Assembly (NCBI GenBank): GCA_905221615.1
Contig: CAJNDT010005368.1
Location: 416,513-480,512, forward strand
Direction: 5' to 3'
Source of the DNA: Symbiodinium sp. CCMP2592
Taxonomy: Eukaryota; Sar; Dinophyceae; Suessiales; Symbiodiniaceae
Length of the DNA: 64,000 nt
Each line of letters begins with the position of its first letter. Position 1 is the stretch's first letter. A program made the translations under genes and the position numbers. Below the pieces are notes generated by a model, which worked only from the letters and a program-made list of their open reading frames with translations, was not told the origin of the DNA and made no database searches. Shown here piece after piece: positions 459 to 63,419 of this stretch.

Positions 459-760
459 TATAGTGACTTTTATAACCCTAAACCCTACACCCTAAGACCC
501 TAGACCTTTAAACCCTTAAACCATTGCACTTAAAAAAAAAAAACCCTTAAACCCTACACCCTAACCCCTAAACCTCTACAACCTAAACCCTAAACCCTAA
601 ACCCTGAGGCGAGCTCTGGCCCCAAGCCTGCTGGATATTGGAGAAAGGGTTACTGCGTCAAAAAAAAGAAAATCCCTAAACTCCTAAACCCTAAACCCCA
701 AACTCCTAAACCTTAAACCCTAAACTCCTAAACCCTAAACCCTAAACCTCTAAAGATCGC
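459..760. repeat. CCCTAAA telomere-like tracts
   Basis: Imperfect CCCTAAA units, with a short unique island at 600-660, before exon-like sequence at 764 and 868. Interior position, not a chromosome end. Confidence 0.85.
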
Positions 761-763
761 TAG

Positions 764-829
764 GGTCGAGTCCCCGCCTTCTACGATGTAGATTCCGCCG
801 ACCTTAACTGCAAGGAGGAAAAAGGCTTT
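764..829 (+). CDS. Possible exon upstream of the kinase core
   Basis: Open frame VPAFYDVDSADLNCKEEKG between two CCCTAAA runs. It could be the N-terminal part of the kinase. Against this, a similar run AAGGAGGAAAAAGGC recurs in non-coding context near 41420, so it may be repeat-derived. Confidence 0.25.
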
Positions 830-867
830 AAAAAAAAAACTCTAAACCCTAAACCATGAACTCTGAG

Positions 868-919
868 GCACATCGTCAAGCTGTACGAAGTCTTCGAGGA
901 TGCTGACGTCGTGTCCCTG
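868..919 (+). CDS. Kinase exon, subdomain IV-V
   Basis: Encodes HIVKLYEVFEDADVVSL, the beta4-beta5 stretch of CaMK-type kinases. The acceptor is CTCTGAG|G, right after a short CCCTAAA run. The donor is best placed as CTG|GCCCCT (GC type), which joins in phase to GTC ATG GAG in the next exon and gives VVSLVMERC. Confidence 0.75.
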
Positions 920-3900
920 GCCCCTCGGACTGAACAGAAGGATGCAAGGGTCCTTAATTTGTTTAGGGTTTAGGGGTTTAGGGTTTAGGGTGGTTTAGGG
1001 GTTGAGGGGTTTAGGTGTTTAGGGGTTTAGGGTTTAAGGTTTAGGGTTCAGGGTTTCAGGGGTTCAGGGGTTTAGGGGTTTAGGGACGTTTAGGGTTTAG
1101 GGGTTTACTAGGGCCTCAAGTCATGAAAGCGAGCAACTAAGCTTGTAAGCCTTTCTCAAGGAACTTCTGCCGTGGCATGATCGTCGTGTATAGAGTATAG
1201 AACGGTAGGGTACACTTTAGTACATATATAATGGAGCATGAGGCATTATGGTCTGTTATAGTGTATCGTGATGCATTGCATCTTTTGTATACCATGCGTT
1301 TGTAAAACAAGTCAGTGCACTTGTTGTGTGTGCACTGGCCCTGGGTGACAAACCCATGAAGCCTTTGACACCGGATGGGCAAGGAATGAATGAACATACC
1401 ACTCCTACCGCTTTTTTTCTGCAAGGGATTTACACCACATTCTTGAACCCTGATTCGAAGCGAATGTCATGCTGTTGCATTCCATGCCTGCAGTATGCAT
1501 GGTTTGCGCAGATGCATGTGCAAGTGGATGGCTGGAAGGAAGGACGGAAGGAGGATGGATGAATGGATGGATGGATGGCTGGATGGATGGATAGGTCGAG
1601 GCATATTTTATACATAGACGTTGGGGACAGGGACATAAGCATGGATTATGTTTCACACATGTCAAGCGGAACCTCATTCTCGTAGCTGCGTGCCATGATT
1701 TCCCAGGCCATTGCAGGGCTCATGCCCGGCAGCGCGGTAGGCAATGCTGAGTTTAGGCCAAATCTGGAAATTGAGTTCAGAACAGACTTAGTAGTCTGAA
1801 GGTTGCTTTGATATCTACTGTTTACTGCCACGCGGCGATCTTGGCCCAGTGTCGAAGAGCTACTATAGTCTGCTAAAGCCTGCTGTGGTCTACTATAAGG
1901 TACTATCAAGTACAATAACTTACCGTAACGTACTGATATCTACTGTAAGCCGCTAGGTTCTCTTCTATACAGTGCTACAAACAGTTACTATGATATACGA
2001 TAAATTATTATTCAGAATAACCTACTGCAACCTACTAGAAGCCTGCAAGTCATTAATTCAGAATATACCCTCACAAGGTCATGGAGCGCTGCAATGGCGG
2101 CGACCTCTTTGATCTCATTGCCTCGCACGCCGACAAAGGCGGCTGGGAAGCTCGTGAGGGTACTATGGAATTACAGACAGAGGTTCTAAGTTCTATAAGG
2201 GTACTACAAAAGCTCTACAAGAGTACTGGAGCAGTCGGTTCAACTAGGGTTTCGGGTTTAAGATTTATGGTTTGGGGTTTAGGATTTAGGGTTTAGGGTT
2301 TGGATGCCATGCACGTTGAACCCTTCTTATGGTTCAACTTGTGAGAGGCATTTCCAGAGCAGGATGGGAAGCCACTGTGAAAGACTGGGGGGCTCTCAAT
2401 CTTCCCAGTCCCCAGATGGTGGGAAACCCGGATTGCGACTGACTTGAGATCCTAGAAAAAGTTGCCAGGCAAGGCTTTCCAACCGTACATGACGCGGCCA
2501 AGGCCATCTCAGAATTACTGTACAGGGGATTGCAGGCAGGCCCGTTTTACACACAGTCTCAACCCCAAGCCGAGGCCCCAAGCCCTAACCCCTCAACCCT
2601 GCATGGCTCTTGGGTTGTTGATGTGAGGCGGATTGACGGAGACTTGTTCTGCACGAGTACAAGTGCGCCTCGGACTTGTAGAATTCGGATTTAGTTTGCA
2701 TCGTTCTATACAGTGATGTTCTATACCTGCTTTTGCAGGATCCCTGAGAGTTGTGTAGGCAGTGTTTTGTGTGGGGGTGGGTGGTAAAGGGTTCGTAATT
2801 TACCTTTAGCGAATCTTTATCTGGGGCTTGCTAGGCTTAGTCGATGGTTTTGTAGGTAATACCGGAATGTTGCATGAGGGTTTCTTACGGTTGGATTACG
2901 ATAGCTTACGCTCCACATAACATCGAGAAGATGTGTTTTCATGTGAGGCACATTCGAACATCCATATGCATCTCATTATGACCCGATGGGTTCACTTGGC
3001 CTGTTTGCCCGGGTTGCGAATGTCAGGTGGTGCAGTTGAGTGCCGTGCCCATCCGCATTTCCAGCGAGCCAACACGGTTCTGACATGGACCTTGAGATCA
3101 TAAAACGCCGAAAAAAGACCGTCGAGAAAGCCCTTGTAAAAACCCTATACAGGCCCGTATAGAACCCAGTTTGACAACTGGTCACCAACTCCCCGCCCGC
3201 CTCCCCACACCACCATCATAATATACTGTACGATGCTAGAGTATATACGGGATTATATTCGAATATGCTACGACAGCCTCTTTCTTAGATTGTAACGGGC
3301 TAAACTCTACCATAAGAAAAGCCACAGCAGAACATACCACGCTCTAATGCCGGCAGATTCCTGGTGCACAAGGGCTTGCTATGCATGCCAAGCATGGTAT
3401 ACCATAAAAGCTGCAATATACTATGGCGCACTAATCACATAAGATAACCATAACCTAGACTAACGCTAGCAATAATGTACCTCCGAGGCATCTGCTTTCT
3501 GCCTTGGCATTCCTCCACGATATCCCTGTGGTTCACCGCGACGTGAAGTGCTGCTGGGCTGGCAATGGTACTGTCAAGGGAGTTCTGAGATCTGGCTACT
3601 TGAATCAGTTCTTTGGCACCAACGAATTCCTGAACTAGTCGGCTCCTCGTAATCGGTTGGGGTCCCTTTGGTGATACTTCTTGCCTGTTGCTGTCCTGAG
3701 AGACCAGAGGAGCTTCCAAGGAGCTGATTTTCAGATCTCCGCTCCTAAGGGTTTTAGGGTTTTGGGTTTAGGGCTTAGGGCCCAAATGTCCATGGTTTAT
3801 CCCATCATAGCAACACCCTAGAACCAATAAGTAGTGTTTATGATCATGCTCACAAGAAGCTCGAAGGTGAGAACGTGCTGCTCTCGCAGAAAGGACTGCC

Positions 3901-6900
3901 TTCCTCGCTCTGATTTAGGGTTTCTAGTGGATTCATTTCTCTACTATAGAGGCCTAGACAATTACCAATACTATTTTGGGGTTTCTCATAATGGCTATAG
4001 TACACTGGACCCCAGACTCTATTCCAATTATCAAGGCGCTTATACTCTGCTCTAAACACCTGACCACCCGAACTACCGCTCCCCCGCTACACCGCCCATT
4101 TCGCCCGCCCAAGGGCGGACCGTTCTCTGAGCAGAAACGGGTCGCAAACTCCAGAAGCCCCAATCGCTACATCCTAGACCCTCAACCCTATAATGCTTAC
4201 CCAAAGGCCTCAAAGTAGTTCCTTTGTGGGGTTCGTATAGAGGATCCTATAAGGTAATCCCCAAAAGGAACTACTTTGTGGCCTCTGGGTAAACCTAAGC
4301 CGACAGGAATCCCGCCGGAGCAAAATACGTACAAGCTCTGCGACTTCGGCTTCGCTGCGCGACCGGAGCCTCCGAGACTGGCCCCAACTTTCAGAAAAGA
4401 GTAAAGTTTAGGGGCCTTAATAGTTAGAATATGGTTTCGGGGCCCATTATACTATAATGACAATAAGGAACCCCCCACAATAGTATTGGTAATTATTTCG
4501 GCCCCTGTATTAGAGTTTCGGTTTTGGTCTTCATGTGGAGCTGACCAAGCCTTTGCGCTTTGCAGATGGGAATGTGCAAAGCTTAATATGAAGAGGTATG
4601 GATGCAGCTTGACATTGGCTGAGGGTGAGGAGTGATTAGCAAGATTGAGGACTGGAGCGACTAGAGTACTAGAGTCTCGACGAGACAAGCAGGAGAAGTC
4701 GAATCTGTCCAGAAAGATTTGGGAATGGTTTGGAGGCGGTAATGGTCCTTTCCAGAGCACTCGAGGAGAATTTGTCGCGGCCTGGGTGTTGGACAGAAGC
4801 ACCGTCGGGCCATCCTAACAACAGCCAAACCGTTCTGAACTCCTGAAGCGACATTAGAAGTATCAACTCAGGGAATACCGGCTGAGCACGCGAATGGGCT
4901 CTCCAGACACCGTCGCCCCAGAGGTGGATGGTATCATCGTTCTGAGGTTTGGGGTGTCGAACTTTAGGGTTCAGGAATTTCATTACGTAGCAGAACTGTT
5001 CTACTCTTCTACTCGTAGTTACAAGTTCTATCATGTTAGTTTCCCGTCCTTGCGGTATTGCTTCTTCTCATTCTTGTCGGTGGCGACGGTCAGAAGGATA
5101 GCTACTATTTGCTTAAGAACCACCCAAAAAATAAAAAATATATTCCTTATGGGGGTAATATAGGGATTATTATTTTTATTTTTGGGGGGTTCTTAAGCAA
5201 ACAGTAGATAGGGACCTGAACGAGGCACGGGACCAAAATCAAGATGGTAGGAGCGGTGGTGCTGATGTTGCTGATGGAGTCGGATGTTTTATGATGAGTA
5301 CCATGAGAGGTGTTTTGCCGAGTGATGTCAATTTGGACCAAAAGCAGCTCGGGCTGGTTGCACACGCTGCATACTTGCAGGGATACACCGGAGCTTTAAA
5401 CCCTTAGCCCTGAGCCTTTTTGGGGCAGGTGCACCACGACCACCAAGACCACCACCACCGCCACCGCCGACGACCGCCACCACCCCAACCGCCACCGCCA
5501 CCGCCACCACTACCACCGCCACCACCACCACCACCACCACCACCACCACCACCACGACCACGACCAGTATCGCTACCCCTTTCACTACCACTACTACCAC
5601 TACCGCTACCACTATCACTACTACACTACTACGACGACTACCTACTACGACTACTCCTACGTCCACTACGACTATTACGACGACTACTGCGACTACTATG
5701 ACGACTACTATGACTACTAGTACTACGACGACGACTACTACTAGTGCGGTTAAAGTTCATTATGAGATCATTACTACTATTCTCATTAGTCTTGTCAATA
5801 ACGGGAGCAGTAGGCATGTTAATCAAGAAGAGGCAACCCAGAGACTCCAATATCCCGTAATTAAGGAATATACCGTACATCATATTTATTAGGGATCCTA
5901 CTATAATTTAAGGTATATTCCTTAATTAAGGGATATTGGAGTCTCGGGAAATCCATGACCCCTTGCAGGTCGTAAGGGGCCACGCGTACTGGACGCCGGT
6001 CGACTGCTGGGCTGCAGGCTGTGGTGGTGAGAGTTTACTTCTTTGGGGTGAGGGTTTGGGGTTTAGGGTTTAGGGGTGCTTATTTGGGTTGAGTGTTTGG
6101 GGTTTGGTTGTTTTGGCGGTCAGTGTTTGGGGTTGAAAGCTTAGGGGCTTGAGGTTCGGGAACTTTAAGTGACCTTGCAAAAGGGGGTTGGGTTGATCTG
6201 TGAAGGTTTATGCTGAGAGTTTTCACGAGGGTCAGAGGTGCCACGCACGCGAAGGCCTTGTATGCGGAGGCTGAGGCGGACAGAAGCTCTTTGATTGCTG
6301 TAACCTAATGGTGCAAGCAGAATGAAGACAGCGATCAGAATGCTGCTGCTCAGGATGATGGCGGTGGAGACCATGATGACGAGGACTATGAGGATGATGC
6401 TGCTGCGGCCGGTGCTGATGATGATGCGATGATGACGACGGTGATGAACAAGTCATCAAGATGATGAAAATTATTGTGAACAGCAATAAACTGCATCTAA
6501 GTCCTGCTGATCCGAAGCTTTGCAGGTGTGCTCCTGTACATGTCCCTGAGCGCCACACCGCCCTTCTATGCCACCTCCGACGCAGAGGCTGGCATTCAAC
6601 ACGCGGTAGTCTGTTGTGGCTGAATCAGTTTCAGTCGCAATCTAGCAACAAACGACAGGTGTTGTACCGAGTAAAAGACGAGCCAAACTTCCATAAGCCC
6701 TTTATCGTATCCATGTTGATCAATAGCCAGATCAGTATCGTTCGGGTGGTCTGCAACAGCACTGCCGCGTTTCCTGTCATTTGCATTTTTGCGTTAGACT
6801 ATGTCTCTAGAAGGGAACCCCCCAAAACAGTATTAGTAATTATTTTGGCCCCTATAAAATTCTGCCCTCGGTTGCAGGCGATCCAGGGCCTCGAATGAAG

Positions 6901-8463
6901 GGAGTGCGCTCGTAGAGAAGCATGCGTTGCAGGTTCTCCAGAAGGTGAAGCATTGTCTGTACAAGCGACCTGGCCGCATTTGCCAGCCATTTTGCAGATG
7001 CATGAGGCCGTCCCCAGAGAGCCCAATACCCCCTAATTAAGCAATATACCTTAAATTATAGGGGGCTTCATATTATGATTTAAGCTATATTCCTTAATTA
7101 AGGGGTATTGGGCTCTCTGGGTCTTTTAGCATCTTCCTTGCGCCTCAAGCCTGTCAGTATCGGTATGTGTTGGACTGGAAGAATTTCCACGTATTCCGCT
7201 GGAGCCCGGCGAAGTTCGACGACCTTCCATGTTGAGATGCATTTTGATGTTGGGCCGGTGCGTGGGGTATAGTCTAGGGTTATTACAGCAAGAACACCGA
7301 AGAGCAATTCTGATGCCCGCTCGACGGAACCCGAACTGAGAAGCAGCACAGTGTCTACAGAGGCCATAGCCGAGCCTAGATCCCCTCCTTGCCCCTTCTC
7401 TGCACCCAACATCTGCAGTGAGGATGGAGGGCAGCCGCTGGGAGCATGTTTCCGGTGAGTCAAAAAGCCTCTTGAGCCGCAAGTGCATATAACAAAACCC
7501 TAAACTCTAAACGAAATGGGCAAGGGCATGAGGTTCGGGTTGTCAAGCTGGGGTGAAGACTACAAAAGGCATCGTCGTGGGCAGTAGGGAATACAGAAAT
7601 TGTCTCCCTGACTAATTCCTACTGCTCTTCTTCAGGGGTTCCTTCAAACCTTTAAAACCCTGAACCTCAAACCTGAACCAGACAGACGCTTAACTGCTTA
7701 GCCGTATTATAACCTGTTAACCCTAAACCATCATAAGCCGCAGAAAACCCGAAAGCACGCGTGATTTGGGGCATCCCATCCCTGTTCAGGATTCTAAATT
7801 ACGATCTCTGACTGGTCTCTGATGTTCTGAAACTTTCATTTCTGCAGAAACAGCAATCACCGCTAAGTCGTAAGTCATACGGATGGCAGAGCTCAGCTGC
7901 ACCGGTACGTACAACGCCGTCGGCAATAACGAAACAGTATTCGCCCGGAACCGTGACGTTGTGTCAATCAACATGAAATCATGATGTCATTTCTGCTTCT
8001 CACGTCTACTAGAGCCCTGCACTCTACCCTAAAGCCCTTAAACTCTAAAGCCCTCAAGCCTCAATGCCCCAAATCCTAAAGCCCTGAGGTCCAAAACTCC
8101 AAAACCATGAACCCACAACCCTTATAGCAACCCTCCTTACGGGAACCGCTAGACTGCATAAGAAGGCCTTGAAGGAACCCTGATAGCAATCTTTCAAGGG
8201 ACCCTGATCTTAAAACCCTCCTCCCAAAACCCAAAAGAGCCGAAACCCCATAGCCCCAACCCAAGAAACCTGATTAAATCCCAAACCCTAAAAGCCGGCA
8301 CCCGAAAACCCTACAGCCCTAAACCCTTACACACCTAAACCCTAGACCCTAGAAATAACCCTTCTAGTAAGCCTTGCAGCTCCGTTAAAGGAACCCCTAA
8401 ACCCCCAAATCCCTATATAGAACCTTTTTTTGATCCCTTAAAGGAACCCCTAAACCTCCAAAT

Positions 8464-8512
<49 letters not shown>

Positions 8513-9510
8513 TAGAACCCTTATAGATCCCTTTAAGGAACCCTGAAGCGAGGCCTGATCCGCCAGCTCATGTGCTTCGAGCAATCCTCGCGAGCCACAG
8601 CGCAGCAAGCTCTTCAGCCCCGGCCTTAAGAAGGGGTTTAGGGTTTAGGATTTTGGGTTTAGGGTCTTGGGTTTTGGGGTTTTGGGTTTAGGGTTTTGGG
8701 TTTAGGATTTTGGGTTTTGGGTTTGGGGTTTTGGGTTTAGGGTTTTGGGTTTAGGATTTTGGGTTTTGGGTTTGGGGTTTTGGGTTTAGGGTTTTGGGTT
8801 TAGGATTTTGGGTTTTGGGTTTTGGGTTTAGGGTTTTGGGTTTAGGATTTTGGGTTTTGGGTTTTGGGTTTGGGGTTCAGGGTTTTGGGTTTAGGGTTTA
8901 GGAGGCCCATGATACTCTACTTAGAATGACGAACCCCCAAAATAGTATTGGTAATTATTTAGGCCCCCCAGATGAAGCAGCAGCATCCTAGGGGTTTTAG
9001 GGTTTCAGGATTTTGGCTTTCAGGGTTTCAGGGTTTTTTGGGTTTTGGGTGTTCGCGGTTCTGGTTTGTTGGTTTCACCTGTTTTGGGCCGGCGTGCTGT
9101 GGGAGGGCTTCGTAGATTTTTTTTAGCAGGTGTAGGCGGTGCGATTGTTTTTGGGTGAGTTTCTTTGGGTGTTTTTGGGGAAGCCAGACAGAGTGCGGCA
9201 AGCTTTGGTTGGGGTAACATGGGAGTTTCCGAATATTTGGGGTACTTCATTTTGGGGTCCTTTTGATAAGGATCCTACTGTTTAGGGTACTATATTCGGG
9301 TCCATGTAGGTACTGTTTGGAGGGCTCTTTATTATAATTATAGTACAGTATACCCCGAAACCCTATTCTAGTTATTAAGGCCCCTATAGTATGTTTCTTG
9401 GACCATTTCCGAGAGCAACCTGCCTGAGTACGTTTCAGGATAACATGCAGCGTCTTTGGGTACGCGGCATGCGCTATGCCTTTCTGAAGATGGTCGAACG
9501 TGGTCGCAGA
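868..9510 (+). CDS. CaMK/CDPK-like serine/threonine protein kinase gene (spliced, about 13 exons)
   Basis: Kinase subdomains appear in order on one strand: IV-V (HIVKLYEVFED, MERCNGGDLFDLI), VIb (VVHRDVK, then ENVLLS), VII (YKLCDFGFAAR), VIII (GSPDTVAPE), IX (VDCWAAGC), IX-X (LLYMSLSATPPFY) and XI (RWEHVS, LIRQLMCF). The family phosphorylates Ser/Thr using ATP. VIb Asp and Asn and the DFG Asp are all present. The Gly-rich loop and the subdomain II Lys were not found and may lie in unseen exons or left of the window. No EF-hand was found downstream, so a calmodulin-type rather than CDPK-type regulator cannot be excluded. Donors are a mix of GT and GC. Introns hold telomere-like repeats and inverted-repeat elements. 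APE+1-loop Tyr is Thr (SPDT). Confidence is high for the family and moderate for exon limits. Confidence 0.85.
957..1110. repeat. TTTAGGG telomere-like tract after a kinase exon
   Basis: Starts 38 bp after the exon ending at 919. Units vary between TTTAGGG and TTTAGGGG. Confidence 0.9.
1111..2070. other. Intron of the kinase gene
   Basis: Holds a GGAT microsatellite (1540-1592) and a TACTATAGTCTGCTAAAGCC-like tract of TACTATAG variants (1855-2060). No exon seen. Confidence 0.5.
2078..2159 (+). CDS. Kinase exon, subdomain V to start of helix D
   Basis: Encodes VMERCNGGDLFDLIASH followed by ADKGGWEA, the hinge and helix D of a CaMK-type kinase. The acceptor is CACAAG|GTC. The exon ends at GTGAGG (2153) or GTACTA (2160). 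A TTTAGGG run begins about 85 bp downstream. Confidence 0.75.
2474..2511 (+). CDS. Probable kinase exon, helix E start
   Basis: Reads FPTVHDAAKAIS after an AAG acceptor. DAAK plus the expected number of residues to LHD in the next exon matches helix E spacing in CaMK kinases. The donor is not canonical, so the right end is uncertain. Confidence 0.45.
3488..3549 (+). CDS. Kinase exon, helix E and catalytic loop HRDVK
   Basis: Encodes HLLSALAFLHDIPVVHRDVK then the first base of the next codon, covering helix E and the HRD catalytic Asp and Lys. Ending at AAG T and splicing (GC donor) to the micro-exon at 3867 gives HRDVKCEN, a common loop form. An upstream start near 3470 (CTAG acceptor) is also possible. 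Confidence 0.8.
3867..3889 (+). CDS. Kinase micro-exon with catalytic-loop Asn
   Basis: About 23 bp between GAAG and GCAG reads ENVLLSQ in the phase needed after HRDVKC. It supplies the metal-binding Asn that the flanking exons lack. It sits 320 bp inside what would otherwise be one intron. Confidence 0.55.
3944..4045. mobile_element. Family A element
   Basis: TATAGAGGCCTAGACAATTA ... CAATTATCAAGGCGCTTATA around the shared ACTATTTTGGGG and TATAGTACA core. In a kinase intron. Confidence 0.75.
4198..4291. mobile_element. Family B inverted-repeat element (94 bp)
   Basis: TA-CCCAAAGGCC ... GGCCTCTGGG-TA: near-perfect inverted repeats, TA on both sides, 94 bp counting both TA. Lies in a kinase intron 8 bp before the DFG exon. 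Confidence 0.85.
4300..4380 (+). CDS. Kinase exon, DFG motif
   Basis: Encodes PTGIPPEQNTYKLCDFGFAA followed by RPEPPRL, with the magnesium-binding DFG Asp. The acceptor CCTAAG lies 8 bp after an inverted-repeat element (4198-4291). The donor is GC (CTG|GCCCCA), and another element starts at 4409. Confidence 0.8.
4409..4510. mobile_element. Family A element
   Basis: TAGGGGCCTTAATAGTTAG ... GGTAATTATTTCGGCCCCTG, core CCCATTATACTATAAT. Begins 28 bp after the DFG exon. Confidence 0.85.
4861..4923 (+). CDS. Kinase exon, activation segment and APE motif
   Basis: Encodes YQLREYRLSTRMGSPDTVAP plus E, i.e. the P+1 loop and the APE motif of subdomain VIII. The family usually has SPDYVAPE; here the Tyr is Thr. 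The donor is GAG|GTGGAT, joining in phase to GTC GTA AGG at 5969. Confidence 0.8.
5102..5216. mobile_element. Family M element with GATAG duplication
   Basis: TACTATTTGCTTAAGAACC ... GGTTCTTAAGCAAACAGTA, flanked by GATAG on both sides. AT-rich inner arms. In a kinase intron. Confidence 0.85.
5440..5745. repeat. ACC/ACT triplet repeat tract
   Basis: CCACCGCCACC blocks then CTACTACGA blocks. The long Pro- and Val-rich frames are repeat translations. Confidence 0.9.
5835..5950. mobile_element. Family C inverted-repeat element
   Basis: AA-CCCAGAGACTCCAATATCC ... GGATATTGGAGTCTCGGG-AA. Long arms with CCTTAATTAAGG-type cores. In a kinase intron, 18 bp before the exon at 5969. Confidence 0.85.
5969..6026 (+). 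CDS. Kinase exon, subdomain IX
   Basis: Encodes VVRGHAYWTPVDCWAAGC. VDCWAAGC is the DxWxxG element that anchors the catalytic loop. Both sites are canonical: TTGCAG|G and GGTG|GTGAG. A TTTAGGG run starts within 40 bp of the donor. Confidence 0.8.
6526..6587 (+). CDS. Kinase exon, subdomain IX-X
   Basis: With the split codon from the previous exon it reads GGVLLYMSLSATPPFY then ATSDAE, matching the kinase run VLYMLLSGTPPFY. The acceptor is TTTGCAG|G. The end is either the GC donor after GAG (6587) or a GT donor at 6606. Confidence 0.8.
6933..6954 (+). CDS. Short kinase exon, helix G
   Basis: After GTTGCAG it reads VLQKVKH, giving DAEVLQKVKH across the junction, typical of helix G in this family. 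The donor T|GTCTGT is in phase with the exon at 7419. A longer form into KHCLYKR is possible. Confidence 0.55.
7011..7123. mobile_element. Family C element
   Basis: TC-CCCAGAGAGCCCAATACC ... mirrored to CTCTCTGGG-TC. In a kinase intron. Confidence 0.85.
7419..7454 (+). CDS. Kinase exon, RWEHVS segment
   Basis: Reads RMEGSRWEHVS, the W..VS run before subdomain XI. Sites are CTGCAG and a full GTGAGT donor. Confidence 0.6.
8025..8450. repeat. Degenerate CCCTAAA-rich tract before a kinase exon
   Basis: CCCTAAA, CCCCAAAA and AACCCTTATAG variants, ending in a 50-bp (AT)n run (8462-8511) and GATCCCTTTAAGGAACCCT before the exon at 8549. Confidence 0.8.
8549..8617 (+). CDS. Kinase exon, subdomain XI
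   Basis: Encodes GLIRQLMCFEQSSRATAQQ then ALQ. The invariant Arg of subdomain XI is in SSRATA. A 420-bp CCCTAAA-rich tract lies before it and a 270-bp TTTAGGG-rich tract after it. A few residues expected between HVS and GLI are missing, so another micro-exon is likely. Confidence 0.7.
8629..8900. repeat. TTTAGGG/TTTTGGG higher-order repeat
   Basis: A unit of about 50 bp built from TTTAGGATTTTGGG, TTTTGGG and TTTGGGG is repeated about five times right after a kinase exon. Confidence 0.85.
9219..9305. mobile_element. Family F element, right end lost
   Basis: GGGAGTTTCCGAATATTTGG and the shared core GGTCCTTTTGATAAGGATCC. The right arm is missing and a family A element follows. Confidence 0.7.
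9308..9390. mobile_element. Family A element, left end decayed
   Basis: Right end CTATTCTAGTTATTAAGGCC and CCTATAG with the family core; the left end runs into an F fragment. Confidence 0.7.
9451..9510 (+). CDS. Probable last recognisable kinase exon
   Basis: After CATGCAG it reads RLWVRGMRYAFLKMVERGR. ALQ|RLWVRG resembles the family's ALQHPWVRG end of the catalytic domain. What follows in the protein is not clear. Confidence 0.45.
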
Positions 9511-9770
9511 ATCTAGTAGTCGTCGTACTGGCCGACGTCGTAGTGGCAGTCCCAGTCCTAGTCGTAGTCGTACTCAGCCGTAGGAGTCGCAATATTGGGA
9601 GCTGCAGCTGTAGACATTGCAACAAGCACGAGTTTGGCATCAATAACAGAAGAGTATAGTTACCACAATATTCTGACATCAAGCACTGCAGGCAACCTGG
9701 TTCCCAGAAGCATTAGTCTAGAAGAAGCTCCTGTGCCCATGCTTCCCTGTTCTTTGAGCTTTAAGCCCCT

Positions 9771-9960
9771 AACCCTCTAAAAACCCTTAAATGCCTACTC
9801 CTGAAATCCCCGCAGCTCTTGACCCTAAACCCTAAACCCTAATCCTCTAAAAACCTTAAATGCCTACTCCTGAAATCCCCGCAGCTCTTGACCCTAAACC
9901 CTAAACCCTAATCCTCTAAAAACCCTTAAATGCCTACTCCTGAAATCCCACAACTCTTGA
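9771..9960. repeat. Three tandem copies of a 65-70 bp unit
   Basis: Each unit contains AATGCCTACTCCTGAAATCC, then GCAGCTCTTGACCCTAAACC. Copies are nearly identical, so the duplication is recent. Confidence 0.85.
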
Positions 9961-9978
9961 CCCTACATGGTGCACCCT

Positions 9979-10084
9979 GAGCCCCTTGACCCGTCTCAAG
10001 GCATCCCTTCCTCAAACGGTCCAGGGCCCCAGTGGATGACGGGAAGTGAGATGACGGCTTCGGGTCTTTGGGAGCTGGAGCCGG
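9979..10084 (+). CDS. Exon, product unknown
   Basis: Open frame with EPLDPSQGIPSSNGPGPQWM and then SEMTASGLWELEP. The acceptor is CCCTGAG after a CCCTAAA array, and the donor is GTTTAGGG. It may be part of the kinase C-terminus or of the next gene. Confidence 0.4.
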
Positions 10085-10238
10085 TTTAGGGTTAGGGAGC
10101 CGGGGTTCTGGCAGAGGTTGGCAGAAACCTTAAACCCTGACTCTTCAAAGCCTAAACACCCCTAAGGCCTTTTGAGGCGTAGGAGGAGGAGATGGCGTCC
10201 ATTGAAACTTGTGTTCTCTCGGATTTCAGAGTAGCTCC

Positions 10239-10365
10239 ACTTGGAGGTTCAGGGGACTCAGCAAGTAGGGTTATAAGTAAGGTTACTATAATATAGTTTG
10301 ATCTACCTGTATCCCCAATCAGATACCTGCTAACTCCACTTTCTAGTCCCCTGATCCTCCAAGTA
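10239..10365. mobile_element. Degenerate family D element
   Basis: ACTTGGAGGTTCAGGGGACT and AGTCCCCTGATCCTCCAAGT at the ends; the core has drifted. Confidence 0.6.
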
Positions 10366-10543
10366 CTGAGACTCAACGACCGTTGTAGTAGCCCTTGTGT
10401 GGTACTCCTTGTAGTAATCCGGAATCCCCACAGGTCCCCTCATACTACAGCTTATGGCAGCGACCCTTCTGGTAACTCTTTCTGTAACCCTTATGGTAGT
10501 TCCCTTACTTGTACAGTACCCCTATAGGCAAAGCACAGGTTTA

Positions 10544-10615
10544 GACTTGGACACGACTCCGCTGAGGTACATGGCACAAGCTGAGCTGAGGCAACCTACG
10601 CCTCCAGATTCGTAG
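10544..10615 (+). CDS. Possible terminal exon, product unknown
   Basis: DLDTTPLRYMAQAELRQPTP then PDS and a TAG stop, followed by a TTTAGGG-rich stretch. It fits a 3' exon of the upstream gene, but only the open frame supports it. Confidence 0.3.
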   Translation, partial: DLDTTPLRYMAQAELRQPTPPDS

Positions 10616-10846
10616 CCTTGACGTGAGACCCGTGGGTTCCATTAAAGTTTGGGCTTTACACGTCAGGGTTTAGGGTTCATGGTTTATTTTGGGTTTAGGG
10701 TTTGAGGTTTGGGCTTCCGGTTTAGGCTCGGAGTTCCGCCAGGAAGACTGGTTTGCCTGGCCGCTGCAAGACCCGTTTGATTAGGAGACTCCAAATCCCG
10801 GAGCCGCCTTTCCCGGAACGAAAGGTTTAAGGGTTGACGGTCTTTA

Positions 10847-10949
10847 GGGGTGGTTGTCAAAATTATGGTCCCTTTTTGGGTCCCTAATATAATACAGCAC
10901 CTAATATTTAGGGTATCCATAAAGGAACCCTAATTTTGACAACTACTCG
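10847..10949. mobile_element. Family E element
   Basis: GGTTGTCAAAATTATGGTCC ... CCTAATTTTGACAACTACTC with GTAC/TATA-rich core. Confidence 0.85.
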
Positions 10950-11399
10950 TAACAGGGGTTCAAGGGGTTTCAGGGTTTGGGGGTTTAGGGTCGGGTTTGA
11001 GGGTTTGCGGCTTTAGAGATTTCGGATATAAGGTTGAAGTGTCTAAGGTTTACGCTTCAGGGTTTCGGGTTCAGGTTCAAAGCGTGACAGGAACGTCTGT
11101 AGGTTCCGCTAGAGCCGCTAAATGCTTGAGCACAGAGGGTTACAGAGGAGTGTCTCATTCCATACAGACCGTTATGACGCGTTGAAACCCGACATTCTAA
11201 AATTGACACTGGTGCCGTCCGGGTTAACTGTCAGTCGGATACAGGATTGCGGGCGTGAGAGCGAGAGCGCGAGAGACAGAGAGAGACACTGTGTGTGTGT
11301 ATGCATTTGTATTGGGGGCGTCACTAAACACGTTTCGAGGGACACTCTAAACTCAAGGATTTGTGGCAGCATTTGGCTTCGAGTTGAGGCTCACAGAGA

Positions 11400-12232
11400 A
11401 GGTTTTTTCCACATTAATCTGCGCCTCCAACCAAGGTTTTTCCACATAAAACGGGGCGCGCAGGCATACTTTTCCACATAAGTCTGGGCCCCCAAGAAGG
11501 GTTTTTGCACATGAATCGGGGCATCGCAGGCATACTTGTCCATATAAATCTGGGTCCGCAAAGAAGGTTTTCTTCATGAGTCCGGGGCATCAACGGCATG
11601 CTTTGAAACAACGTGGAAACATCCGGGCTGGTTGCGGAAAAAGCTGTGGCAACATCCGGGCTGGTTGCGGAAACAGTTGTGGAATCATCCGGGATGGTTG
11701 CAGAAAAAGCTGTGGAAACATCCGGGCTGGGTTCGGGAAAAGTTGTGGAATGTGATGTCGATTCGTGTTGTCTCTAAATTTACCTGATCAAAACCAAGTT
11801 TGTCCGCAAACTTATCCGCAAACCGCTTGAGTTTCTCCACAAGTTTTTCCGCACATCGGGCCGGTGTCTCCACAAGCTTTTCCGCAAGCTTCCTTTGTGA
11901 TTGCGCATTGAGTGAAACTGCATGTAAAACTCGGCCGGGGGCGTGGCCGTGGTCGTGGAAAAAACAGGCCGTAGGTGTGGAAAAACCCGGCCGGAGGCGT
12001 TAAAAAACCAGGCCGTAGGCGTGGAAAAACCTGGCCCGGGGTGTGGAAAAGCAAAGCAAGGCCGGAGGCGTTAAAAAACCAGGCCGTAGGCGTGGAAAAA
12101 CCTGGCCGGGTGTGGAAAAACGCGTGGAAAAACCAGGCCGTAGGCGTGGAAAAACTTGGCCGGTGGTGTGGAAAAACAAGGCCGTAGGTGTGGAAAAATC
12201 TGGCCGGTGGGCATGGAAAGAACATCGAAGTG
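11400..12232. repeat. Minisatellite region with mirrored halves
   Basis: Left (11400-11580) has TTTTTCCACAT-type units. Middle (11590-11760) has four copies of about 38 bp with ACATCCGGGCTGGTTGCGGA. Right (11930-12215) has units of CCAGGCCGTAGGCGTGGAAA. The right half is roughly the complement of the left. Long minus-strand frames here are repeat translations. Confidence 0.8.
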
Positions 12233-12336
12233 CAGATGGAGTTTAGGAAGCTTTGTTGACGGACCCGCCCAACATTTGTACCTTCTGCCGATTGTCTAGA
12301 ACAAGCCTGTACAGTCACCCAACAATGCACCAGCTC

Positions 12337-12436
12337 CCTGTAGTCTCCATTGTAGTTCCTTTTTGGGGTTACCTTATAGGATCCTTAATATATACTTGGT
12401 TAAACCATGAAAAGGAACTACAATGGAGACTACAGG
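12337..12436. mobile_element. Family B2 element
   Basis: CCTGTAGTCTCCATTGTAGT ... mirrored at the right end. The core (GGATCCTTAATATATA) relates it to family B. Confidence 0.8.
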
Positions 12437-12768
12437 TACACCCCAAGCCCAAAGGCCCAAATCCTGAAGCCAGATGCTGTGACATCTGTGAGTGAGTGTG
12501 ATGTGCCTAAGTAATCCGAGTGTGGATGCTGAAGTGCGTCTTCGATGAGGAGGCAAAGGTGTTCGGGCGGAGCACCGTCAGTGCATTTTAGGGTTAAGGG
12601 TTTAGGGGTTTAGCTGTTTAGGGTTTAGGGTTTTAGGGTTTCGGGTTTAGGGACCTTGCGATTGCTCCGGGAAATGCAGCCGGGCTGATTGTTTAATCAT
12701 GCAGCCTCCGACCGGAGCAAGCTACCATCGAAGGAAAGAGAGGTGTCTCTATGTAAGGGGCCAGTATA

Positions 12769-12883
12769 ACCTAGGATGCCCAGTAGTACCCTTATTCCCT
12801 TTTTGTAGTCCTAGGTTCCTTATAAAGTTACCCAATACCAAAAAGAGAGGCCTTTTTATTCTTAGGTTACTGGGTATCCTAGT
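12769..12883. mobile_element. Family I element
   Basis: CTAGGATGCCCAGTA ... TACTGGGTATCCTAG around TTATTCCCTTTTTG/CAAAAAG-type inner arms. Confidence 0.65.
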
Positions 12884-13043
12884 AACGGTTCCATGAGGGT
12901 AAGATAAGAGCTCTATGTAAAGGTTCCACAAGGGCTCCCTCAGGGCTTGAGGGTGTCGCTGTTGCTCTCTAGAAGAAGTGATTTCTGCAGCTTGCTGATG
13001 CCGCGCGTGCCGTGAACAGAGCTTTCGGGTAATAGAGCGGTCT

Positions 13044-13143
13044 AAAGAACTACCAACACTATTTTGGAGCTCCAAATTATTATACTTATCGTATAATATG
13101 ATTACCCCAGCTTCCCGTCGTAATCGTTAAGGCCCATATAGCA
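13044..13143. mobile_element. Degenerate family A element
   Basis: ACTACCAACACTATTTTGGA ... GTAATCGTTAAGGCCCATAT. Confidence 0.6.
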
Positions 13144-13223
13144 GCTTAAGACTTGAGTCTGGTGTCTTTGCAAGAACTACTCTCTCTGAGAAGCGGCGAA
13201 GCTTCACCGTCTCTTTCTTCGAT

Positions 13224-13260
13224 GAACCCCAAAAAGGAACTACCATGGGGCCTTAGGGTA
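13224..13260. mobile_element. Half of a family B element
   Basis: Only the right arm remains (CCCCAAAAAGGAACTACCAT and on to GGGTA). Confidence 0.6.
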
Positions 13261-13375
13261 GCTTGAGCAGGTCCCAGGTGGCATGTTTTAATTGCCGCGG
13301 TGGCTGCCGACTGCATGCAGTGCGCAGCGCTCTGCCTCAGCTGAAGCTAATCGAAGTAGAGGTCCTGACGTAACA

Positions 13376-13482
13376 TTGGGGCTTTAATCATTAGAATCGG
13401 GTTTTGGGGTATGGTATACGATAACAAATTACAATAAGGACCCCCCAAAATAGTGTAGAAAATTATCTAGGCCCCCGTACTA
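13376..13482. mobile_element. Family A element
   Basis: GGGGCTTTAATCATTAGAAT ... AAATTATCTAGGCCCCC. Confidence 0.75.
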
Positions 13483-13926
13483 CTACTGTTGCTAGATTCT
13501 TGCCCGATGGCGACTGGTAGTTTGCCCTGATGGATCTGCGCAGGCCTGCATCTAGCTTCCTCTGAATCCCAAAACAGGTCCAAAACCAATGCTATCTCCA
13601 GAAACCCTACCCCCAACGACCCTAAACCCCTTATCCCCGAAACACCCTAAAGCAATAATCATAGTAATTATAATAACAATAATAATAACCCTAAATCAAT
13701 ACGCGCCTTGGAGCCCCTAAGACCTCAAACTTAGGGGTTTAGGGCTGCGGGCTTGGTTTCTGGCTCCGCGGTTGTGGCAGTTCAGCTGCAGATTGTGTGA
13801 CAGATCGGCACCAATGATTTAGCGCGACTTCTCAGATGCATCGAAGCACGAAGTACAAGATCCGTCAACCCTAATCCCTAAAGATCCGTAAAAGTCAGAA
13901 AAAAAGATCCGTAAAGCTACTTGCAG

Positions 13927-14096
13927 GGTATGGGCCCTTGCTGACAGCTCAGTTCTTCGAGGCATTCTGACCGGTCGACTCCGCCTTATGCCAGGGAATA
14001 GAGGGCCTTCGCCCAACTTCCTAGTCCCGGAAGAAGAAAAGTTCCAAGTTTCATGTCGCGGACTGGTACCACATCTTCCGTTCTGTCGAGTTCTGT
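13927..14096 (+). CDS. Open frame, possible exon
   Basis: About 56 codons, including ADSSVLRGILTGRLRLMPG and NFLVPEEEKFQVSCRGLV, closed by TAG. It starts after a TTGCAG. No domain recognised. Confidence 0.25.
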
Positions 14097-19175: not shown

Positions 19176-19510
19176 AGACCCTAAACCCAAAGACATCCCT
19201 AAACCTTAAATCCCTAATCCTTAAACCCCTAAACATCCCTAAACCCCAAATCCCTAAACCCCTAAACCCTAAACCTTTAAACATCCCTAAACCCTAAACC
19301 CCCAAACATCCCTAAACCCTGAACCCCTAAACATCCCTAAACCCTAAACCCCTAAACATCCCTAAACCCCAAATCCCTAATCCCTAAACCCCTAAACCCC
19401 TAAACCCTAAACCCTAACCCCCTAAACCCCTAAACCCCTAAACCCCTAAACCCTAAACCCTAAAACCCTAAACCCTAAGCCCCTAAGCCCCTAAACCCCT
19501 AAACCCTAAG
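19176..19510. repeat. CCCTAAA array upstream of an exon
   Basis: About 335 bp of CCCTAAA, CCCCTAAA and ACATCCCTAAA units, ending in CCCTAAGCCCTC at the exon-like island. Confidence 0.9.
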
Positions 19511-19589: not shown

Positions 19590-19975
19590 TACCGTTAGGG
19601 TTTAGGGTTTAGGGTTTAGGGTTTAGGGGTGTAGGGGCTTAGGGGTTTAGGGTTTAGGGGTTTAGGGTTTAGGATTTGGGGGAGTCCAATACCCCTTAGT
19701 TAAGGAATATTCCTTAAATCATATTAGGGATCCTACGGTAATTTAAGCTATATTCCTCAATTAAGGGGTATTGGAGTCTCCGGGGGGTTCCTGCAGGGGT
19801 TACTATAACAGGACCTGTGAGGGTGACTGCAAGGGTTTTGAGTTTGGGGCTTAGGGTTCAGGGATTTAGGGTTTAGGGATTTAGGGTTTAGGGCTTAGGG
19901 ATTTAGGGTTTAGGGTTTAGGGGTTTAGGGTTTAGGGATTTAAGGTTTAGGGTTTAGGGCTCGGGGCTTAAGGAA
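19590..19975. repeat. TTTAGGG arrays around a family C element
   Basis: TTTAGGG units at 19590-19676 and 19835-19975, split by the C element and a short unique stretch. Confidence 0.85.
19676..19785. mobile_element. Family C element
   Basis: GGAGTCCAATACCCCTTAGT ... mirrored at GGTATTGGAGTCTCC. It directly follows a TTTAGGG array. Confidence 0.8.
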
Positions 19976-22234: not shown

Positions 22235-22309
22235 AAGTCCACTCCCTAAATTCCTTCGTATCCTTATACCATAATACACCCTAAGGCCCTAAGGCCTGTT
22301 CTAACTAAT

Positions 22310-22510
22310 TGAGTTACCCAACCACCCTAAACCCGAAAGGCCCTAAACCCCAAACCCTAAACCCCAAACCCTAAACCCCAAACCCGAAACCCTAAACCCT
22401 AAAGGCCCTAAACCCCAAACCCTAAACCCTAAACCCCAAACCCTAAACCCTATACCCTAAACCCTAAACCCTATACCCCAAATCCCAAACCCTAAACCCA
22501 ACCATTAAGT
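22310..22510. repeat. CCCTAAA array
   Basis: Directly precedes the exon-like island at 22525. Confidence 0.9.
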
Positions 22511-22598: not shown

Positions 22599-22600
22599 GT

Positions 22601-22805
22601 GTAGGGTTGAGGGTTTAGGGTTTTAGGGTTTAGGGGTTTAGGGTTTAGGGTTTAGGGTTTAGGGGTTTAGGGGTTTAGGGGTTTAGGGGTTTAGGGGTTT
22701 AGGGTTTAGGGGTTTAGGGTTTAGGGTTTAGGGGTTTAGGGGTTTAGGGGTTTAGGGGTTTAGGGTTTAGGGGTTTAGGGTTTAGGGTTGGTTTAGGGGT
22801 TTAGG
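22601..22805. repeat. TTTAGGG array
   Basis: About 200 bp of TTTAGGG and TTTAGGGG units, opening at the donor of the exon ending at 22598. Confidence 0.9.
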
Positions 22806-23032
22806 GGCTCCTGACAGCTTGGCAACATCAGAATGTTGCGCAGTGCATGTGCAACTCTGGTTCGTTGCATTTTTATGATCATAGTTTAGCAGGTTTTGCT
22901 TGACTACATGGCCCCATGTCTGGATCACCATCTGCACATGAACATCTGTACGTTATGAACTATTGCCGAAGATATTCTAGCGTCTCTCGCTGTGTAAGTT
23001 CACCAACATGTTCACTTCTCATGAACCCGCAG

Positions 23033-42904: not shown

Positions 42905-42996
42905 AGAAAGACTCCTAAACCCTAAACCCTAAGGCCCTAAGCCCCAAACCCTAAAACCCTGATACCCTAAAGCCCTAAAGCCCTAAAGCCCTAAAG
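42905..42996. repeat. CCCTAAA/AGCCCTAA array before an exon
   Basis: Ends in four AAGCCCTA units that lead straight into the acceptor CCCTAAAG of the exon at 42997. Confidence 0.85.
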
Positions 42997-61832: not shown

Positions 61833-61949
61833 ATGTAGGTGGTCGTCGAAGTTATGGTCCCCTTCTGGGTCTTATAATACGGCACCTATTAGTTAGGGTA
61901 CCCAACAAGACTTCAAAAAGGAACCTCAATTTTGACAACTACCCATGTA
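61833..61949. mobile_element. Family E element with ATGTA duplication
   Basis: GGTGGTCGTCGAAGTTATGG ... AATTTTGACAACTACCC, ATGTA on both sides. 5-bp duplication as in the 29423 copy. Confidence 0.85.
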
Positions 61950-62406
61950 TGTAGCACAGGGCGTGGACTGTCGGGGTCGAGGGGGTTTCAAGTTTGGGGT
62001 TTCGTGCTTGCTCCTGCGACTAGAGAAGATGGAGATTGTGGTTCTAGTAGCCCTGAACCCTAAGCCCAGGTCAACAGAATGCTTGGCATCTTTGCACCTT
62101 TCCAAGTGAAACGTCAATACCTTTAACCACGCATCAACTGGTTAGATGGCCCCGCTACTCCCTTATAGTCCCGTTCTAGTATATAATAATACAATATCCC
62201 CCGAGACCCGAGACTATAGTCTAGCTTTTCATAGTAAGCGTCAAAATAACCCCATTCTTACTATATGACGGTCCCAACATCATTCGGTGCTGGTCAGGTT
62301 ACATCACCAGCAGGAAACATCGCACCCGGAGGCCCAACCGCTGCGACTCTTTTCGGGAAGACGGTTCATATACAAGCCTGGTTAGGGTAGAGGGCTTAGC
62401 ATGAAC

Positions 62407-62516
62407 TAGGACCTGGAGTAGGCCCTTATTCCCTTTTTGCAGGGTTCAGGTTCCCTTATAAGCCCCTTGAAACCAAAAAGGGCACCCTTTTTATTCCCAG
62501 GCTACTCTTGGGTCTA
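62407..62516. mobile_element. Family I element
   Basis: Shares CCTTATTCCCTTTTTG and TTTTTATTC cores with 12769-12883; outer arms more decayed. Confidence 0.6.
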
Positions 62517-62622
62517 GTGAAGAAGTCGCAAGCAAATAGTAAATCCTCTCCTAAACCCTAAACCCCTAAACCCCTAAACCCTAAACCCCTAAACCCCTAA
62601 ACACTAAACCCTAAACCCTAAG

Positions 62623-62766
62623 CCGCCCCCCCCCGGAGCAGCCTCAAGAGCTCCCCCTGGAGCTGGCTTCCGTCCTTGAAGGCCCCTCGGTTCAGTCGGA
62701 GAAGCCGAAGCTGAAGGCCAAGTACAGCAGCCGAGCAGCACCCCAAGGCCTGAGGAAGAGAGAGGG
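62623..62766 (+). CDS. Exon flanked by CCCTAAG and GTTTAGGG
   Basis: EQPQELPLELASVLEGPSVQ then SEKPKLKAKYSSRAAPQGLR and KRE. The acceptor CCCTAAG is the last unit of a CCCTAAA array, and the donor GTTTAGGG is the first unit of a TTTAGGG array. Unknown family. Confidence 0.6.
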
Positions 62767-63419
62767 GGTTTAGGGTTTAGGGTTTAGGGTTTAGGGGGCC
62801 TTTCGAGGTTTGGTTTTTGGCTTGGGTTTATAAACGGGCCTCGAATCGGGAATCTTGTGCGCTAAAGCTATGTCGCCTCCATTGTGGAGAGTGCATGGGG
62901 GATGGATGCGCGGTTTTGCATTGCTTCCGATGTTCAGAGACCTGCTGGCCTGAACAGATTTCTCGTTGGCCTCTGTGCGCAAGCGTAGCTTGACGTTTGA
63001 CCAGCTGATGCAGAGATTATAGAAAGTATTGTATGGTCTCCCACCAGCACGGACCACAAGCTCTTCAGAGATTGAGGAGCTAAGTCTCTCGACGCTTATA
63101 AGTAACGGGATTTGTGTTACCGAGCTGGTCGGGGCCGACACCCCATCGATAGTCTAAGTAAGTACCGTTAGAAGTATCATGTTTGTGGTTAAAAGTAGTT
63201 ATCAGAAGTATGATTACCTTGCTTATATCCCTAGTTAGTGCGCTCATCCTGCCTTCTTCCTAGATGCGTGTTAGCGCTTGCAATGCACTAGACATGACAG
63301 TGCCGTGAGAAGTCACAAACGCGAAACTCCCCATAGTAAAGCGGGTTCGAAGAGCGCGGGTTCGAAGAGAGAAGTCCGCGATTTCACACTCTGCAGCTGA
63401 AGCCAACAACGGTTTAGGT

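Follow-up and report, generated by a model that had tools for sequence, protein, structure and literature searches.

Oriented telomere-like repeats near intron ends in a dinoflagellate genome: an apparently splicing-linked feature, mostly distinct from the splice sites

A kinase gene and interstitial telomere-type tracts

The stretch of DNA analysed here (the window, 64 kb) begins 416 kb into its contig in a dinoflagellate genome of 1.1 Gb. It carries a protein kinase gene on the + strand, from 868 to about 10,036, which was found by homology independently of the repeats (PF00069; best piece, exons C–G joined, E 9.7e-21, 74.8 bits), together with many tracts of TTTAGGG or its complement CCCTAAA (Table 1). 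For Fugacium and other dinoflagellates, TTTAGGG has been reported as the telomeric unit (PMC11453091). Counted as exact units, the window contains 148 TTTAGGG and 146 CCCTAAA, compared with 4.3 TTTAGGG predicted from base composition. These tandem copies lie well inside the contig, as in interstitial telomeric sequences, for which non-terminal tandem copies are one criterion. Across the genome, the 14-mer of the repeat was counted 487,741 times versus 433 for the backward-read control, mostly in short arrays (a perfect 140-base array gave only 226 overlapping matches). The tracts named in the initial annotation were all found, with exact units in 7/7 CCCTAAA ranges and an exact unit within 35 bases of 10/10 TTTAGGG positions; numerous others, for example those in 13620-18838 and 23705-31846, were absent from its list and adjoin no known exon.

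The kinase junctions were chosen by protein continuity, and the donor of exon B and the 3' edges of exons G2 and I are uncertain. Exons A and B joined gave E 9.1e-07 (29.0 bits) and exons H and I joined gave E 0.0043 (16.9 bits), both under the PF00069 cut-off of 31.7 bits. Because its exons are short, the kinase was missed by whole-frame Pfam scans of the three + strand frames of 1-14,999 and 15,000-29,998, of which the sole output was a Lamprin match below cut-off, which we rejected. Twenty typed domain queries, the kinase pieces and a dynein frame, searched against the window plus stretches of two other contigs (C1 and C2), returned one more kinase exon and nothing else at E <0.1. Exon G2, 3' of which the first exact TTTAGGG occurs only at 8637, was excluded from the edge tests, which covered 8 donors and 9 acceptors.

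Table 1. Kinase exons, repeat tracts and candidate exons in the window (a slash marks a putative splice junction)
Feature	Position	Strand	Remarks
CCCTAAA tract	476..853	-	10 exact units, directly 5' of exon A
Kinase exon A (HIVKLYEVFEDADVVSL)	868..919	+	acceptor CTCTGAG/G, donor CTG/GC, from protein continuity
TTTAGGG tract	962..1102	+	12 units, begins 42 nt into intron A-B
Kinase exon B (VMERCNGGDLFDLIASHADKGGWEARE)	2078..2158	+	donor set at GG
TTTAGGG x2	2285..2298	+	126 nt into intron B-C, counted from assumed donor
Kinase exon C (HLLSALAFLHDIPVVHRDVK)	3488..3549	+	donor AAGT/GC; first TTTAGGG 203 nt intronic
Kinase exon D (ENVLLSQK)	3867..3893	+	donor AAAG/GA; TTTAGGG at 3914, 20 nt intronic
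Kinase exon E (IPPEQNTYKLCDFGFAARPE)	4307..4367	+	donor CCGGA/GC; TTTAGGG at 4407, 39 nt intronic
Kinase exon F (EYRLSTRMGSPDTVAPE)	4872..4923	+	donor GAG/GT; TTTAGGG at 4963, 39 nt intronic
Kinase exon G (VVRGHAYWTPVDCWAA)	5969..6017	+	donor GCAG/GC; TTTAGGG at 6062, 44 nt intronic
Kinase exon G2 (VLLYMSLSATPPFYATSDAEA)	6526..6589	+	tblastn, typed CDPK-like query, E 0.004
Kinase exon H (RGLIRQLMCFEQSSRATAQQALQ)	8549..8616	+	acceptor CCCTGAAG/C, donor TTCA/GC
TTTAGGG tract, intron H-I	8637..9002	+	8 exact units, 49-bp higher-order repeat
CCCTAAA tract	9823..9905	-	4 units, ends 96 nt 5' of exon I
Kinase exon I (HPFLKRSRAP)	10001..10036	+	acceptor CTCAAG/G; TTTAGGG at 10085
CCCTAAA tract	19179..19503	-	28 units, left of GC-rich island 19504-19600
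TTTAGGG tracts	19601..19959	+	7 + 11 units, right of island 19504-19600
CCCTAAA tract	22244..22496	-	14 units, left of island 22497-22613
TTTAGGG tract	22614..22806	+	25 units, right of island 22497-22613
CCCTAAA tract	42920..42995	-	6 units, left of candidate exon 42996-43245
CCCTAAA tract	62556..62615	-	7 units, left of candidate exon 62616-62768
TTTAGGG tract	62769..62796	+	4 units, right of candidate exon 62616-62768

Within the window, exon status by homology is limited to the kinase exons; none of the exon edges listed earlier near 19504, 22497, 33158, 35384, 42996, 60583, 61578 and 62616 was supported by homology. Dynein-trained codon-usage scoring gave 6.08 for 50 islands lying between a CCCTAAA and a TTTAGGG tract and 6.27 for GC- and length-matched controls (p 0.46), so that coding potential provides no proof that the islands are exons. 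Around 140 tracts, the inner flanks scored slightly higher in codon usage than the outer flanks (p 0.035), and the difference in GC content was not significant (p 0.20). When two islands were translated and searched against the genome, two candidates were scored and only the window itself was returned.

Tract order and position relative to exon edges

The two tract types do not alternate at even distances. In the window, the median distance was 180 bp between a CCCTAAA tract and the TTTAGGG tract that follows it, and 535 bp between a TTTAGGG tract and the CCCTAAA tract that follows (p 0.023 by label permutation; p 0.013 when the number of gaps <300 bp was compared), indicating that tract polarity in the window exceeds chance. 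In 100 kb of contig C1, 35/52 C-to-T gaps and 20/52 T-to-C gaps measured 50-300 bp. Genome-wide, at a spacing of 90-120 bp, the order with CCCTAAA on the left and TTTAGGG on the right was observed 6,324 times versus 1,139 for the reverse order, with a backward-read control of 0 in both. When 6-mers were required to occur at least 40 times in 164 kb, both as the word and as its reverse complement, orientation asymmetry was strongest for GTTTAG and TTTAGG, followed in third place by a microsatellite word, ATGTAT. A second G-run repeat, AGGGTTC and its relatives, occurs near kinase exon H and near one dynein exon (L045), and no clear polarity of its own was found. Since CCCTAAA-island-TTTAGGG equals its own reverse complement, the arrangement alone does not reveal the transcribed strand.

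We therefore refer tract position to exons defined by homology. TTTAGGG starts within 60 nt of the putative donor at 6/8 kinase donors, with offsets of 20, 20, 39, 39, 42 and 44 nt, and farther away at the other 2/8, while CCCTAAA lies within 60 nt at 0/8; the donor-side enrichment of TTTAGGG gave a circular-shift p of 0.005. On the acceptor side, CCCTAAA was detected up to 110 nt upstream at 3/9 acceptors and TTTAGGG at 1/9; the final unit of the first tract stops 15 nt short of the putative acceptor of exon A, and exon H has CCCTAAA 95 nt upstream and TTTAGGG 20 nt past its donor. When G2 was scored as a miss, the values became 6/9 donors and 3/10 acceptors.

For comparison, 16 dynein loci were picked by family and not by repeat, with distances measured from the match edges. 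The same polarity relative to transcription was found at 3/16 exons, on two other contigs: L043 (CCCTAAA from -121 to -31, TTTAGGG from +2 to +50, starting about 5 nt or less from the putative donor), L045 (nine CCCTAAA, TTTAGGG at +37) and L042 (CCCTAAA at -95 and -60). The strand polarity around exons proposed in the initial annotation is thus present at the kinase gene and these three dynein exons, and absent from the other 13/16. Sense-strand G-runs no more than about 100 nt from the donor, a trait of intronic splicing enhancers, accompany as TTTAGGG 6/8 kinase donors and 2/16 dynein exons, most dynein exons lacking them. Taking kinase and dynein edges together (24 donors and 25 acceptors, within 110 nt), 14 showed the proposed polarity, two were contrary (dynein L051, CCCTAAA at +69; kinase exon D, TTTAGGG at -94) and the others showed neither; these edges are not independent, because a single kinase gene, together with dynein exons located on two contigs, provides the polar signal at known exons. 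Ten of the 16 small dynein loci have no tract at all, and six larger dynein stretches (50.5 kb) contain at most 0.27 units per kb, which indicates that splicing there does not need tracts. Further dynein exons (23 matches in a DHC_N2 search and 17 in an AAA_8 search) stand outside the 16-locus counts. The polarity of tracts at intron ends is therefore real but regional.

A looser G-richness was seen on contig C4952, in which other exons, without exact tracts nearby, retain GGG after and CCC before the exon; at L044, GGG/CCC counts were 5/0 after and 0/12 before. Over 14 exons without exact tracts, the G/C skew had only a weak polarity (0.04 on the 3' side of the exon and -0.10 on the 5' side; p 0.14). 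In four further dynein introns the C-rich 3' end was not found (skew 0.20 and 0.16). This weak skew and the four introns leave a general G-run rule unsupported.

Splice sites, pairing of intron ends and origin of the tracts

It had been proposed that the repeats themselves supply the splice sites, with GTTTAGGG as donor. The putative kinase donors are GC, GA or GT dinucleotides located 5' of the repeat, and the exon edges do not fall at GTTTAGGG, so the proposal is not supported for the donors of this gene. For acceptors it may hold in a loose sense, as CTCTGAG/G and CCCTGAAG/C could, by their sequence, be decayed repeat units. The accompanying proposal, that both ends of an intron carry complementary tracts, is mostly not supported in the kinase gene: with exact units, 7/9 kinase introns have TTTAGGG only, 1/9 CCCTAAA only and 1/9 both (H-I). 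With one mismatch allowed, 3/9 introns (B-C, D-E and H-I) have both tracts at the proper ends, TTTAGGG-like units falling in the initial 150 nt and CCCTAAA-like units in the final 150 nt.

Pairing in RNA between the complementary tracts of one intron, joining its splice sites, is an unlikely explanation. The two tract types are complementary by sequence, intron H-I holds 9 exact TTTAGGG and 4 exact CCCTAAA with an end-to-end duplex (-144.8) that exceeds all eight cross-pairings, the introns with both tracts at one mismatch fit, and the introners of Amoebophrya, with inverted repeats of 8-20 nt, are drawn in PMC7789003 as hairpins that join exon ends. However, 8/9 kinase introns have one exact tract type only, H-I alone forms a stronger duplex with its own 3' end than with that of every other intron, and in 5/9 the own duplex is weaker than mean cross-pairing. 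Pairing would equally permit the opposite arrangement and so leaves the polarity unexplained. The strand symmetry of the arrangement suits instead a process at the DNA level, in which breaks beside exons are repaired or capped by telomerase with telomere repeats and then rejoined, transcription being irrelevant; CCCTAAA-segment-TTTAGGG resembles a fragment with telomeres at both ends, like a tiny chromosome, and in primates and rodents telomeric repeats are reported to be inserted when breaks are repaired (PMC7215372). Against this account, which we judge decidedly improbable, the narrow donor offset of 20-44 nt suggests a tie to splicing, and in the kinase gene donors are marked more often (6/8 within 60 nt) than acceptors (3/9 within 110 nt), although these numbers are small.

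Descent of the introns from introners or MITE-like elements with telomere-like terminal inverted repeats, or their identity with such elements, seems more improbable still. Symbiodinium microadriaticum has been described as carrying introners with terminal inverted repeats and 4-bp target site duplications (PMC9860276), other Suessiales as carrying introner elements (PMC10522408), and the TTTAGGG array of dynein L043 is flanked by an imperfect 12-bp direct repeat. Yet the tracts share no common body (a repeat match in the 300 bp past multi-unit tracts was obtained for 72/133, versus 85/133 random places), lie 20-44 nt away from 6/8 donors and vary widely in unit number, and exact inverted repeats at both ends occur in 1/9 kinase introns, an exact second terminus missing in most. 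Least probable, in our judgement, is unselected growth of a TTTAGGG microsatellite in introns with purifying selection clearing the exons: the abundance of the repeat in mostly short arrays agrees with it, but it predicts equal orientations at both ends, in conflict with the genome-wide order and with the 14 versus 2 homology-defined edges.

Oriented tracts as candidate intron-definition elements

We tentatively favour a reading in which the tracts are orientation-dependent intron-definition elements, kept or recruited, with their orientation set by splicing. Short, partly decayed telomere-type arrays, presumably derived from telomerase or telomeres, would lie inside introns close to their ends. 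In the pre-mRNA, this would place G-rich UUUAGGG about 20-45 nt past the donor and C-rich CCCUAAA up to about 150 nt before the acceptor, and the two types would act, or be tolerated, as separate elements. By analogy with animals, G-runs past a weak GC, GA or GT donor might serve as an intronic splicing enhancer or an RNA G-quadruplex, and the C/U-rich tract might aid recognition of the 3' splice site. Selection would purge tracts in the reverse orientation because sense UUUAG/GG resembles a 3' splice site (YYYAG/G).

A genome-scale oriented repeat at a near-fixed distance from the donor would be a concrete, testable candidate for the signal by which dinoflagellates recognise their numerous introns, whose donors are weak and often not GT. 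It is conceivable, if doubtful, that the telomere heptamer is a genome-wide, orientation-coded intron-end mark that helps to define long introns in their thousands, where the GC, GA or GT donor is weak. If so, it would constitute a splicing code made of telomeric DNA, tie telomere repeats to intron evolution and offer gene finders a cheap clue where exons are short. A full-text literature search found no description of oriented telomere-like repeats at intron ends, which look like an undescribed feature linked to splicing, the repeats mostly not being splice sites themselves.

The tracts resemble interstitial telomeric sequences in being telomere-type, non-terminal, short and decayed, but differ in being placed by exon edge, oriented and very numerous; the account of such sequences in PMC6410037, as far as it concerns introns, mentions them without exon-edge or oriented placement. 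With dinoflagellate introners and the introner elements of Amoebophrya they share an inverted repeated sequence at intron ends and non-GT donors, but they have no common element body, vary in array length, are offset from the donor and often mark one end only. The intronic G-run enhancers and RNA G-quadruplexes near animal 5' splice sites likewise place G-runs a few tens of nt into the intron, and potential G-quadruplexes are described as common near mammalian 5' splice sites (PMC5778605). Unlike those elements, the G-runs described here consist of the telomere heptamer and have a C-rich counterpart at some acceptors.

Abundance, order and regional density of the repeats

The window lies on contig C4922 (416,513-480,512; 64 kb) of an assembly of 1.098 Gb in 5,383 contigs and contains 148 copies of TTTAGGG and 146 of CCCTAAA, the expectation for TTTAGGG from base composition being 4.3. 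TTTAGGG is the telomere unit reported for dinoflagellates in PMC11453091. All 17 tracts named in the initial annotation are present. Genome-wide, the 14-mer TTTAGGGTTTAGGG occurs in 242,927 + 244,814 copies (backward-read control, 209 + 224), and the dinoflagellate spliced-leader sequence in 217 + 212 exact copies (control, 0), which identifies the organism as a dinoflagellate. The combined density of the two 7-mers is strongly regional: 4.59/kb in the window and 3.64/kb in C1:100001-200000, at most 0.7/kb in each 10-kb piece of C2:1300001-1400000, and 0 to 0.27/kb in six larger stretches (50.5 kb) around some dynein AAA_6 matches. The 100 kb taken from contig C2, of which 5 kb is N, contained only 17 + 19 copies.

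The order of the tracts is polar. After merging the window repeats into 79 tracts, the median gap from a C-rich (CCCTAAA) to the next G-rich (TTTAGGG) tract was 180 bp, versus 535 bp in the opposite order (permutation p 0.023). The same polarity was observed in 100 kb of contig C1, where gaps of 50-300 bp accounted for 35/52 from C-rich to G-rich versus 20/52 in the opposite order. Genome-wide, 14-mer pairs spaced 90 to 120 bp apart numbered 6,324 for CCCTAAA-then-TTTAGGG and 1,139 for the reverse order (backward-read controls, 0), both counts being inflated by overlapping matches within arrays. In a ranking of 6-mer asymmetry over 164 kb, covering words with at least 40 copies each of themselves and their reverse complement and including non-independent copies within arrays, GTTTAG and TTTAGG came first, followed by a microsatellite word. 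A CCCTAAA-island-TTTAGGG unit is its own reverse complement, and therefore known exons are required to assign the transcribed strand.

Other features were also met. A second dispersed repeat of type AGGGTTCCTTAAAGGGATCTATAAGGGTTCTAT, which itself shows no clear polarity, adjoins exons or islands at window 8500-8549 and 42996-43245 and at the dynein loci L042 and L045. Long ACT/GCTACT/CAC microsatellites (window 5432-5743, 25525-25836, 26891-27574) yield open frames, with nothing there to indicate genes. A U6 snRNA match (46189-46301, minus strand; 55.1 bits, gathering 44) has ACAAAGA for the Rfam consensus ACAGAGA and a 3' end without a T-run, and is perhaps a pseudogene or divergent copy. C1:113331-125957, with long open frames and a stretch whose residues read as integrase-like, is probably a retrotransposon.

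Tracts at kinase and dynein exons

A plus-strand protein kinase gene (868 to about 10,036) was recovered as nine pieces (exons A-I) in three frames by motif scanning and by-eye reading, and a tenth piece, G2, by a tblastn match (E 0.004). Joined pieces matched PF00069 with E values of 9.1e-07 (A+B), 9.7e-21 (C-G) and 0.0043 (H+I), the Pfam cut-off being exceeded by C-G alone; C-G also matched PAK kinases of known structure (E 3.8e-14). Junctions were set at AG/G-type acceptors and GT, GC or GA donors predicted to restore the kinase sequence across the split codon, and the eight tested donors were five GC, one GA, one GT and one uncertain (B, set at GG). With G2 excluded, TTTAGGG was found within 60 nt of 6/8 donors and CCCTAAA of none (circular shift of donors within the gene, p 0.005), and within 110 nt of the acceptors CCCTAAA was found at 3/9 (-15, -95, -96) and TTTAGGG at 1/9 (-94); G2 has neither tract nearby, and its inclusion gives 6/9 donors and 3/10 acceptors. 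The proposal that GTTTAGGG itself is the donor fails in this gene, because the first TTTAGGG begins past the predicted donors, a few tens of nt deeper in the intron.

Positions (nt) of tracts relative to predicted kinase donors (first TTTAGGG) and to dynein family-match edges
Feature	Contig	CCCTAAA	TTTAGGG
Kinase A donor	C4922		+42
Kinase B donor (uncertain)	C4922		+126
Kinase C donor	C4922		+203
Kinase D donor	C4922		+20
Kinase E donor	C4922		+39
Kinase F donor	C4922		+39
Kinase G donor	C4922		+44
Kinase H donor	C4922		+20
L042	C5362	-95, -60	-167, -146 (further up); none downstream
L043 (P-loop exon)	C5362	-121, -76, -38, -31	+2, +18, +34, +50
L045	C4952	nine, -156 to -29	+37, +291
L046	C4952		-273 (single, stray)
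L050			+223 (single, stray)
L051		+69 (single, stray; contrary to rule)	

A family search for dynein AAA_6 exons gave 44 matches, of which 16 small loci were read with flanks, distances being measured from the match edge and not from the splice site. Polarity relative to transcription was observed in 3/16 loci (L042, L043, L045), and tracts were absent from 10/16. By our own tally of kinase and dynein edges (24 donor, 25 acceptor), 14 edges had a tract within 110 nt in the proposed polarity and two had one against it. Near L044 and L046 (both C4952), which have no exact tract close to the exon, GGG/CCC counts were 5/0 and 3/0 after the exon and 0/12 and 3/8 before it. The G/C skew was only weakly polar in 14 exons without exact tracts (p 0.14), and a C-rich 3' end was absent from four further dynein introns. 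Polarised tracts around exons are shown for the kinase gene and for dynein exons of two contigs, and the CCCTAAA-then-TTTAGGG order for the whole genome. The feature is regional: it is lacking at 13/16 of the dynein exons read.

The dynein heavy chain matches at C4952 168521-289447 lie on one strand and span some 120 kb; a single gene made up of them would have very long introns. On either side of the TTTAGGG array just after the L043 exon stands one copy of an imperfect 12-bp direct repeat (ACCACGAAGGAG / ACTACGAAGGAG) resembling a target-site duplication.

A proposed role in intron definition and its alternatives

We favour the interpretation that the tracts may act as oriented intron-definition elements, with G-runs placed behind weak donors and C-rich tracts placed ahead of acceptors. 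The polarity could be kept by selection against sense TTTAG/GG near the acceptor, where it would be harmful because it resembles a 3' splice site.

Pairing of the intron ends, by which complementary termini would fold the splice sites together, remains a rival. Among the nine kinase introns, exact copies were TTTAGGG alone in seven, CCCTAAA alone in one (G2-H) and both in one (H-I). When one mismatch was tolerated, TTTAGGG-like copies lay within the first 150 nt in 7/9 introns and CCCTAAA-like copies in 0/9; within the last 150 nt lay CCCTAAA-like copies in 5/9 and TTTAGGG-like copies in 3/9, and both types stood at their proper ends in 3/9. The end-to-end duplex energy of an intron beat every cross-pairing only in H-I (-144.8), whereas in A-B, B-C, F-G, G-G2 and G2-H the cross-pairings were stronger on average. 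Pairing may occur in some introns, but it is no general rule across the nine. Descent of the tracts or introns from introners likewise remains a rival to intron definition; flanks beyond 133 multi-unit tracts gave a match in 72 cases versus 85 for 133 random places, being no more alike than these, and therefore no common element body was seen. A DNA-level capping process behind the arrangement also remains.

The known introners of this group, as described in PMC9860276, PMC10522408 and PMC7789003, have TIRs, some with TSDs. No description of telomere-type repeats at intron ends was found by full-text searches of PMC, a set that mostly leaves out the subscription literature. The feature is related to interstitial telomeric repeats and to intron-end signals, both of which are already known.
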